64,000 bases of DNA, from NCBI RefSeq assembly GCF_900172275.1, contig NZ_FWFT01000004.1:124001-188000 (forward strand), written 5' to 3'. This document shows, one piece after another, positions 13,725 through 16,937 of the stretch. The notes under the pieces were generated by a model that worked only from the letters and a program-made list of their open reading frames with translations, was not told the origin of the DNA and ran no database searches. The translations under genes were made by a program, and so were the position numbers. The DNA is from Pseudooctadecabacter jejudonensis (GTDB lineage: Bacteria > Pseudomonadota > Alphaproteobacteria > Rhodobacterales > Rhodobacteraceae). The first letter of the stretch is position 1. The number at the start of each line of letters is the position of its first letter.

Positions 13725-16682
13725 TCAGCCGCCCGACAAGGCGGCATCGCAGCGCCCACAAACGCCGGCATGACTGTGCGTCCCCACATCGGGCAAGATT
13801 TTCCAGCAACGCTGGCACTTTTGGCCTTCGGACTTCGCGAAAACCACGCCCACGCCCGCCACATCGTCCAGGGCAAAAGCACCCTCTGGGGCTGCCCCTT
13901 CGACCAAAGTGATCTGGCTGGTGATGCACAGGTCGGCAAAGGTTTCTGGGTTGGTGATGACCGCCGCCAGCTCAGCCGACAGATAGACCGTCGGTGCGGC
14001 CTCCAGCGATGAGCCGATGACCTTCGCCGTGCGCTCCGCCTCCAACGCGCCTGTCACCACGCGGCGCACGCTGCGCACGGTCTCTGCCCGTGCTGCCAGC
14101 GCATCGTCGCGCCAGGCGGCGGGGGTGTCTGGGAAGTCCTCCAGATGCACAGACGTGTCCGCCCCATTGCGCTCCAACCAGACCTCTTCCATCGTGAACG
14201 TCAGGATCGGGGCCAGCCAGGTTGTCAGCCGCGCATAAAGCGCATCCAGCACCGTCAGCGCCGCCAACCGGCGCGGGCTGTCCCCGTCGCAGTACAAAGC
14301 ATCCTTGCGGATATCGAAATAGAACGACGACAAATCCAGCGTCGCAAACTCAAACACTGCGCGGAACACGCCCTGGAAGTCGTACTTGGCATAACCGTCG
14401 CGCACGACGCCATCCAAGACGGCCAACTTATGCAGGATCAACCGCTCCAGCTCCGGCATATCCTCTGCCGCGACGGCCTTGGCCGGATCGTAATCCGCCA
14501 GCGACCCCAACATAAACCGAACCGTGTTGCGCAACCGGCGATAGCTGTCGGCCACACCTTTCAGGATTTCATCCCCGATCCGCAGATCAACCGTATAGTC
14601 CGATTGCGCCACCCACAGCCGCAGAATATCTGCGCCGTACTGCTGCACGACCTTCTCGGGCGCCACCGTGTTGCCGATGGATTTGGACATCTTCATGCCC
14701 TTCTCATCCAGCGTGAACCCGTGGGTCAGCACCCCACGATACGGAGCCCGCCCGATGGTGCCGCAGCCCTGCAGCATGGACGAATGGAACCACCCACGGT
14801 GCTGGTCCGTGCCCTCAAGGTACAAATCGGCCAACCCATCCTCGGACCCATCCTCACGGTCCCGCAGAGTGAACGCATGGGTCGAACCGCTGTCAAACCA
14901 CACATCCAGAATGTCCATGACCTGGATCCAGTCCTCCGGATCGTATTCATTCCCAAGGAACCGCGCCTTTGCCCCTGGCTTATACCAGGCATCCGCGCCT
15001 TCCTCTTCAAACGCCTGCAAGATGCGCGCGTTCACGGCCTCATCGCGCAACAGATAATCTTCATCAGTAGGCTTCGCCCCCGCCTTCACAAAACAGGTCA
15101 GCGGCACACCCCACGCCCGTTGACGTGACAACACCCAGTCGGGCCGCGCTTCGATCATGGAATACAACCGGTTGCGTCCCTTCTGCGGGGTCCATGCGAC
15201 CAACTCATCAATCGAGCGCAGCGCTCGCTCCCGGATCGTCGTGCCATAGGTGTCTTGCCCATCGCCCACGGCCTTGTCGACAGCGGCAAACCACTGTGGC
15301 GTGTTGCGATAGATCACGGGTGCCTTGGACCGCCAGCTGTGCGGGTAGGAGTGTTTGATCTTCCCGCGCGCCAACAGCCCGCCCACCTCGGCAAGCTTGG
15401 ACATGATCGCGGCGTTGGCATCGCCCTCCCAATTCCCCTTCTTGGCCTTCTCCCGCAGGATGCGTTTGCCGCCAAAGAACGGCAGGTCCTCGCGGAAGGT
15501 GCCATCGTCCATGACGTTATATGTGATGACCTTTTCCAGCCAGCTGCCGCCATCGGGATGCGCGCCCAGATCACGGTAAAGCTCAAACTCCTCCATCCCG
15601 TGGGACGGCGCACAATGGACAAAGCCCGTGCCCTCCTCATCCGTGACAAAATCCGCCGCACGGAAATCACGCAGATCGTCCCATTCGCCATCCGCCCCGT
15701 CGGCACCGGCCAGCGGGTGTTTCAACGACAGGCCCGACAATTCATCCGCAGTGACATCACGCACCCGCGTCCACATGCCCTCGTCCAGACGCGCCTTGGT
15801 GAACACGTCAGACGCCAGCTTGTCCGCCACAAGGAACCGTTCCCCGACGGTGACCCAGCTTTCCGCCGGCGTGCCCGTGATCTCATACAGGCCATAGGAA
15901 TAGTCGGCCCCGAACACGACCGCCTTGTTGGACGGGATCGTCCAAGGCGTCGTCGTCCAGATCACGACCTTCGCGCCCTCCAGATCGCCCACTGTCGCGA
16001 CGGCGAACTTCACCCAGATCGTGAAACTCTCCTTGTCGTGGTACTCCACCTCCGCCTCAGCCAGCGCGGTCTGCTCCACCGGCGACCACATCACGGGCTT
16101 GGACCCCTGATAGAGCGTCCCCGTCATCAGGAACTTCTGAAACTCCTCAGCGATCACCCGCTCGGCATGGAAATTCATCGTCAGATACGGATCCGCCCAG
16201 TTGCCGGTGATCCCCAACCGCTTGAATTCCTCACGTTGGATGTCCACCCAGCCGCTGGCAAAATCGCGGCACTCCTGACGGAACTCCACCACATCCACGG
16301 CGTCCTTGTCCTGGCCCTTCTCGCGGTACTTTTCCTCGATCTTCCACTCAATCGGCAGCCCGTGACAATCCCAACCGGGGATATACCGCGCATCGCGCCC
16401 CATCATCTGCTGAGACCGCACCACCATATCCTTGAGGATCTTGTTCAGCGCGTGCCCGATGTGCAAATGCCCGTTGGCATAGGGCGGCCCGTCGTGCAGC
16501 GTGAACGGCGGGCGCGTCTCTGCCTTCGCCTTCTCGCGCAGCTTGCCATACACATCCATCTCCCCCCAACGGGCCAGCCATTCGGGCTCTCGTTTGGGCA
16601 GGCCCGCGCGCATCGGAAAGTCTGTGCGCGGCAGGTTCAGCGTGTCTTTATATTCGTTTGTCTCGGTCTTCTCAGCACACAT
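13725..16682 (-). CDS. ileS: Isoleucyl-tRNA synthetase
   Basis: 985 residues, class I synthetase. The HIGH signature is at residues 74-77 ([16 protein letters not shown]) and KMSKS at about 664-668. The CP1 editing domain lies between, visible in [17 protein letters not shown]. The C-terminal zinc-binding part has paired Cys in CQRCWKIL and CGRCDAAL, so this is the bacterial type. It charges tRNA-Ile and edits valine. The start is ATG at 16682, read as [19 protein letters not shown] short Ile-rich ORF with a hairpin sits 80-130 bases upstream and may regulate it. Confidence 0.98.
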
Positions 16683-16763
16683 CGAATGCGTCCTTTATCA
16701 TCGGTCATGTCAGGAAATAACGGCAGTGCGGATCGCTCATACACCTTTGCCCGGCGGCTGTTC

Positions 16764-16814
16764 TTACAGCGCCGGGGATGTAATTCGAATAATCTTGATC
16801 AGACGCATCATCAT
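16764..16814 (-). CDS. Putative Ile-rich leader peptide of ileS
   Basis: A 16-codon ORF reading MMMRLIKIIRITSPAL, with four isoleucines among residues 6-11 (three ATT, one ATC). ATG at 16814 lies seven bases after a TATAAC -10 hexamer, so the transcript may start at the ATG itself (leaderless). A GC hairpin spans its stop codon (CCCGGCGCTG / CAGCCGCCGGG with one bulged C). ileS starts 81 bases downstream. The layout resembles a ribosome-mediated attenuator sensing Ile-tRNA supply. There is no U-run after the hairpin, and no Shine-Dalgarno. Function is inference. Confidence 0.4.
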   Translation of the reverse strand: MMMRLIKIIRITSPAL

Positions 16815-16820
16815 GGGCGC

Positions 16821-16848
16821 GTTATACCAACAAAGTCCGCCACGACAA
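16821..16848 (-). promoter_or_regulatory. Predicted sigma70-type promoter of the ileS leader
   Basis: Minus strand: TTGTCG, 16-bp spacer, TATAAC. The predicted start coincides with the first base of the leader ORF. Confidence 0.5.
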
Positions 16849-16912
16849 CCCGTCCCCAAAACACAAAGCGTCGCCCAGCGGACCACCCTCCAATCACGAA
16901 CAACGCCCTGCT

Positions 16913-16937
16913 TCTTTGGGTCAAAAATACCTAAACG
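16913..16937 (-). repeat. Dispersed 3' element, copy 5 (downstream of ubiK)
   Basis: On the minus strand it reads AGGTATTTTTGACCCAAAGA. It lies downstream of the ubiK terminator in the orientation of ubiK. Confidence 0.55.

Follow-up and report, generated by a model that had tools for sequence, protein, structure and literature searches.

The window analysed here, a stretch of 64,000 nucleotides from Pseudooctadecabacter jejudonensis, carries the isoleucyl-tRNA synthetase gene ileS on the minus strand, with a short leader ORF and two hairpins upstream of it. The features are as follows.

16843..16848, minus strand: −35-like hexamer TTGTCG, read from the sequence; same-genus genomes align TTTACC or TTTACG here
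16821..16826, minus strand: −10-like hexamer TATAAC, from the sequence, aligned same-genus genomes, and the TATANN box comparison
16764..16814, minus strand: leader ORF (uORF) encoding MMMRLIKIIRITSPAL and a stop, from the ORF and its presence across Rhodobacteraceae
16781..16787, minus strand: invariant core CGAATTA (read in frame as CGA ATT A..), with CCCGG following after 4 nt
16750..16776, minus strand: hairpin P1 (CCCGGCG-CTG, loop with the TAA stop, CAG-C-CGCCGGG), from energy and covariation
16725..16745, minus strand: weak hairpin P2 (GGTGT ... GCACT in this genome), from the family pairing match
16691..16696, minus strand: Shine-Dalgarno sequence AAAGGA of ileS, from the sequence; AAGGA is kept in alignments
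13725..16682, minus strand: ileS, isoleucyl-tRNA synthetase, 985 aa, from the ORF; relatives were retrieved by its first 268 aa

TTGTCG (16848-16843), a spacer of 16 nt, and TATAAC (16826-16821) are followed after 6 nt by the leader ATG at 16814. The leader ORF (16814-16764; 16 codons) has the Ile codons ATC, ATT, ATT, and ATT as residues 6, 8, 9, and 11. Hairpin P1 starts 5 nt past the ATT codon of the core, its loop holds the TAA stop, and the distance from this stop to the ileS ATG (16682) is 81 nt. An initial annotation had placed the same promoter and ORF here, with four Ile codons at residues 6-11, three of them ATT, and its positions were accurate; the strong hairpin that it saw over the stop codon, with ileS 81 bases on, was also correct when re-read from the sequence.

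With the window Ile frequency as background, the probability of at least four Ile among 15 residues was ~0.004. Conservation, however, is far stronger evidence for the leader than this P value. A generic promoter scan of the window did not list TTGTCG-16-TATAAC among its sites; the support for this promoter is comparative. Upstream of the promoter lies a short repeat, TTTAGGTATTTTTGACCCAAAGAARCAGGGCG (16900-16935, minus strand), which has one copy in the window and about 40 copies in this genome (87-100% identity).

Conservation of the leader and its hairpins in Rhodobacteraceae

We compared the ileS upstream regions of 17 same-genus genomes and 80 other Rhodobacteraceae records, with one species in both sets. 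A short ORF was found at the matching place in 97/97 loci, with its stop 76-111 nt upstream of ileS, and the leader was also present in 29/29 further Rhodobacteraceae genomes drawn at order level. The usual peptide is MTxxxAIIIRI(I/T)xPAL followed by the stop, and its N-terminal half varies freely. At three same-genus loci (L091, L101, and L105) the leader stops early (..IIRII, then TAG upstream of the hairpin) and the core is kept.

The end of a TATANN box lies 6 or 7 nt upstream of the leader ATG in 79 of the 97 loci, and 6-10 nt upstream in 95. A box 6-7 nt before the ATG predicts that the transcript begins on the ATG itself or right beside it, with no room for a Shine-Dalgarno sequence of the leader; that is, a leaderless uORF.

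The two codons that lead up to the conserved Arg, −2 and −1, encode Ile in 87/96 and 84/96 leaders, respectively. The first two bases of these codons are nearly fixed (entropy 0.15-0.60) and the third is free (1.37-1.38), which is a coding signature. The initial annotation had expected Ile codons to be kept while their bases vary, and this was borne out. Most leaders have 3-5 Ile apiece, and one (L141) has just 1 Ile with the core kept. The leader Ile codons are rich in ATT (216 ATT, 126 ATC, and 64 ATA versus 149, 532, and 59 in the window genes). The core codons show almost no synonymous drift, with CGA in 90/96 leaders and ATT in 95/97; as background, CGA makes up 80/1134 Arg codons and ATT 149/740 Ile codons of the window genes.

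The RNA from the leader to the ileS start folded better than shuffled sequences at this locus (z = −2.8), and P1 alone did so over 93 loci (mean z = −4.26). Our covariation analysis of P1 showed that 92.8% of cells were paired versus 33-53% in slid controls, and that both sides had changed in 6/10 pairs, counts that take no account of relatedness. The P2 pairing (GGTG/CACC or GGCG/CGCC) was found in 65 of the 72 scored Rhodobacteraceae leaders, also uncorrected for relatedness. Judged by these comparisons, the leader upstream of ileS is not a product of chance, and the Ile-rich ORF with its hairpin very probably has a genuine role in control.

The core across Alphaproteobacteria and before other genes

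The class set comprised 88 ileS loci of Alphaproteobacteria, most families being represented by a single locus. A search for the peptide R-I-x-x-P with any codons gave candidates upstream of ileS in 37/88 loci, and all 37 use CGA ATT. The nucleotide-level search for the core was positive in 42/88 loci. Of these, L256 is apparently a chance match, while L214 and L255, with a long ORF, resemble the type found before the ACT-like genes described below. The core stands before ileS, in frame in a short ORF, in about 40 of these 88 family-diverse loci. In frame 0, which reads CGA ATT, 41 of the 42 core loci have an in-frame ATG within 30 codons and 36 have a stop within 15 codons; in the other two frames, only 2 and 7 loci have an ATG within 30 codons. 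The spacing from the core to CCCGG is constantly four bases in the class ileS leaders, and the bases themselves are free. The pattern CGAATTAN4CCCGG had 114 matches in 192 class genomes versus 19 for the reversed control pattern. At several class loci without the core, ileS lies directly behind an apparent ribF (gene named by eye).

Ile accounts for about 10% of the residues upstream of the core in the class leaders, often with just 1-3 Ile in total. Because Ile can fall this low (1 in L141), yet CGA and ATT refuse synonymous change, something beyond Ile supply is under selection.

A covariance model built from the core and P1 also matched far from ileS. Among the matches that were opened, most lie upstream of a gene whose product has about 100 residues and an ACT-like pattern. 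The profile of this protein was found in 28 of 115 class genomes, and the core lies upstream of the gene in 24 of 29 loci (L268-L296). These proteins had no match in Pfam or NCBIfam, and the sole PDB match of the profile was the acetolactate synthase III small subunit (weak, E = 0.84), so the ACT-like label is tentative. As read by eye, the next gene is threonine dehydratase-like at L183 and L269, and is ileS itself at L295.

An apparent Nudix-type gene often comes after the ACT-like gene at L268-L296. At L203 (1321 and 1503) and at L270, one ACT-like gene has the element twice upstream of it, with about 200 nt between the copies. Variants that stop earlier, at the sixth codon (RIxxPA, then stop), lie before genes for proteins named by eye as NTF2-like (L307) and ATPase-like (L309 and L310).

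In the P. jejudonensis genome, the sole other match to a 2-mismatch pattern (L267) shows neither a leader nor a hairpin that could be recognised, and the ileS copy is the only convincing one. Confinement of the element to ileS is thus true in this genome by the 2-mismatch pattern and false across the class.

Ile upstream of the core was no richer in ileS leaders (10.6%) than in ACT-like leaders (8.6%). Directly after the core, Ile was found in 18/37 ileS leaders versus 4/26 ACT-type leaders (Fisher p = 0.008), which supports an isoleucine role beyond the shared core. Because the same core is found before ileS across the class and before the small ACT-like gene, the core with P1 is, by its distribution, a class-wide module, with Ile codons enriched in the Rhodobacteraceae ileS leader. 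The nucleotide-fixed core, its persistence in leaders with one to three Ile codons, and the second gene family all go beyond what the initial annotation foresaw. That ACT-like genes have the core too hints at a small regulon in common, which may be one of isoleucine metabolism.

Proposed mechanism and its alternatives

Besides what was computed here, namely the ORF and its conservation in frame, the core with its fixed spacing, and hairpin P1, we infer a ribosome pause, its dependence on tRNA-Ile, and an output step. We lean slightly towards the explanation that the leaderless uORF would serve as a sensor of ribosome position, with the ribosome paused at CGA-ATT against P1 and the pause tuned by charged tRNA-Ile. 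Transcription would begin on the leader ATG or close beside it, and the ribosome would initiate directly on that ATG. It would then meet the slow codons CGA and ATT, which in Rhodobacteraceae are preceded by two or three Ile codons, and P1 would at that moment lie roughly where the mRNA enters the ribosome. When CGA occupies the P site and ATT the A site, the mRNA entry is about at the P1 start. With little charged tRNA-Ile, the ribosome would wait longer at CGA-ATT and P1 would stay intact; with enough of it, the ribosome would reach the stop inside P1 and open the hairpin. The two ribosome positions would lead to different ileS output, for which Rho-dependent termination or RNase cleavage would fit better than an intrinsic terminator or Shine-Dalgarno masking. 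What speaks against this explanation is that Ile can drop to low counts beside an unvarying CGA and ATT, that the core is also found upstream of genes other than ileS, that the Ile share ahead of the core does not set ileS leaders above ACT-like ones, and that neither a terminator nor an alternative fold accounts for the output.

The stretch before ileS is unstructured, and over the family it is C-rich and G-poor: C minus G was 0.18 versus 0.03 in 30 control regions of the window, which is a small control. In this genome the value was just 0.05. Because the bias is seen over the family and not notably in this genome, Rho-dependent output is rated as possible. The Rfam scan of the window gave no match at the gathering threshold, and the leader gave only a chance match to another family (E = 2.5). 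A T-box was rejected because the window has no Rfam covariance-model match to one, and a frameshift from the leader into ileS was rejected because the stop-to-start gap is not constant modulo 3 among the Rhodobacteraceae loci.

A classical transcription attenuator or a Shine-Dalgarno-masking switch driven by the Ile codons is suggested by an Ile-rich leader upstream of an Ile gene and by the two hairpins P1 and P2. However, we disfavour it as quite improbable. Four T within 10 nt were found after P1 in 0/93 leaders and after P2 in 8/93; the RNA between the P1 3' strand and the Shine-Dalgarno sequence, in which an alternative fold or antiterminator was sought, was less structured than shuffles (mean z = +0.64); and constrained folding of the 93 leaders gave an ileS ribosome-site access of 0.489 with the ribosome on the Ile codons versus 0.470 with the ribosome on the stop. 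The initial annotation had correctly seen no U-run past the hairpin. Its ribosome-mediated attenuator stands as regards a leader ORF with conserved Ile codons, leaderless by promoter spacing, and falls as regards a terminator and an alternative fold, while the control of translation that it suggested finds no support in the access values as occlusion of the Shine-Dalgarno sequence. It is very improbable that the leader peptide itself acts in trans, like peTrpL in Sinorhizobium, with its position before ileS incidental. Although the tail RI(I/T)xPAL is kept in Rhodobacteraceae, the PAL codons are the P1 5' strand, so that RNA structure explains this part of the tail, and the N-terminal half is free to vary.

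A ribosome-shielded RNase E site would be an improbable, though not far-fetched, alternative: GAAUU lies beside the hairpin, and a paused ribosome would cover it and stabilise the ileS mRNA. The RNase E consensus is RN↓WUU, which GAAUU fits. Such a site would account for the nucleotide-level conservation, the hairpin without a U-run, and the missing alternative folds. However, these sites are usually degenerate and demand neither a fixed C before, nor an A after, nor a reading frame, and the literature search yielded no cleavage data. We give more credence, while still regarding it as rather unlikely, to a codon-pair or sequence-specific pause at CGA ATT A against P1 that is independent of isoleucine and would report translation speed or another signal, the extra Ile codons of Rhodobacteraceae being later tuning. 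It accords with the absence of any synonymous swap of CGA ATT in the 37 peptide-defined class leaders, with the invariable 4-nt spacing to CCCGG, with a core common to the upstream regions of ACT-like, NTF2-like, and ATPase-like genes, and with the excess of genome-wide matches over the reversed pattern (114 versus 19 in 192 genomes). However, the two commonest targets, ileS and a gene faintly like that of the acetolactate synthase small subunit (E = 0.84), suggest an isoleucine theme, and Ile is selected at −2/−1 in Rhodobacteraceae and enriched at +2 in ileS leaders.

The sensor of ribosome position tuned by charged tRNA-Ile therefore remains our preferred explanation. A wider proposal, to which we give a little less than even credence, is that CGA ATT A N4 CCCGG with P1 would be an undescribed class-wide module of Alphaproteobacteria, in which a ribosome on a leaderless uORF would be held at a fixed codon pair against a hairpin and would control ileS and the small ACT-like family with neither a terminator nor a Shine-Dalgarno switch.

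Comparison with known systems

The literature searched says little about how Alphaproteobacteria control their aminoacyl-tRNA synthetase genes. Lopatovskaya et al. in 2010 reportedly treated the attenuation of aminoacyl-tRNA genes, and their work may predict some of these leaders. A leader that is present in every examined Rhodobacteraceae ileS locus and recognisable class-wide provides a precise, mutable target, and with the CGA ATT pair fixed and its distance to a hairpin unchanging, pausing by codon pair and hairpin becomes a testable question.

No ileS leader of Rhodobacter came up in the literature searches. The initial annotation knew of no such leader for ileS in this group, which agrees with the literature searched as regards Rhodobacteraceae. 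In Caulobacter crescentus, however, a ribosome-profiling study that mapped CDSs names an ‘ileS leader CDS’, CCNA_03934 (PMC4117421). The novelty of our leader is partial because this CDS had already been named. Both are small CDSs upstream of ileS in an alphaproteobacterium; however, the available part of that study names CCNA_03934 without mechanism, sequence comparison, or regulation.

T-boxes have been predicted for ileS in Actinobacteria (PMC1262725), which is likewise RNA control of ileS. However, those T-boxes would sequester the Shine-Dalgarno sequence and involve no translated leader, whereas the ileS leader studied here has no Rfam match. The trpL/rnTrpL of Sinorhizobium meliloti is a leaderless leader and a transcription attenuator that releases an sRNA (PMC10117765). 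It resembles the ileS leader, which is likewise predicted to be leaderless, as a short ORF upstream of an amino-acid gene in the same bacterial class, but trpL releases its sRNA via attenuation, whereas the ileS leader has no terminator past P1.

According to the available part of its description, S. meliloti duf1127_1 is a uORF attenuator that works without a classical terminator-antiterminator pair (PMC12218461). Together with Escherichia coli tnaC and Bordetella bp2923, it shows premature termination that is controlled by a uORF and is Rho-dependent or presumed so, an output that the ileS leader may share; the difference is that the same available part describes neither isoleucine codons nor a CGA ATT core for the three. 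We file the ileS leader under uORF-mediated control, outside the classical attenuators.
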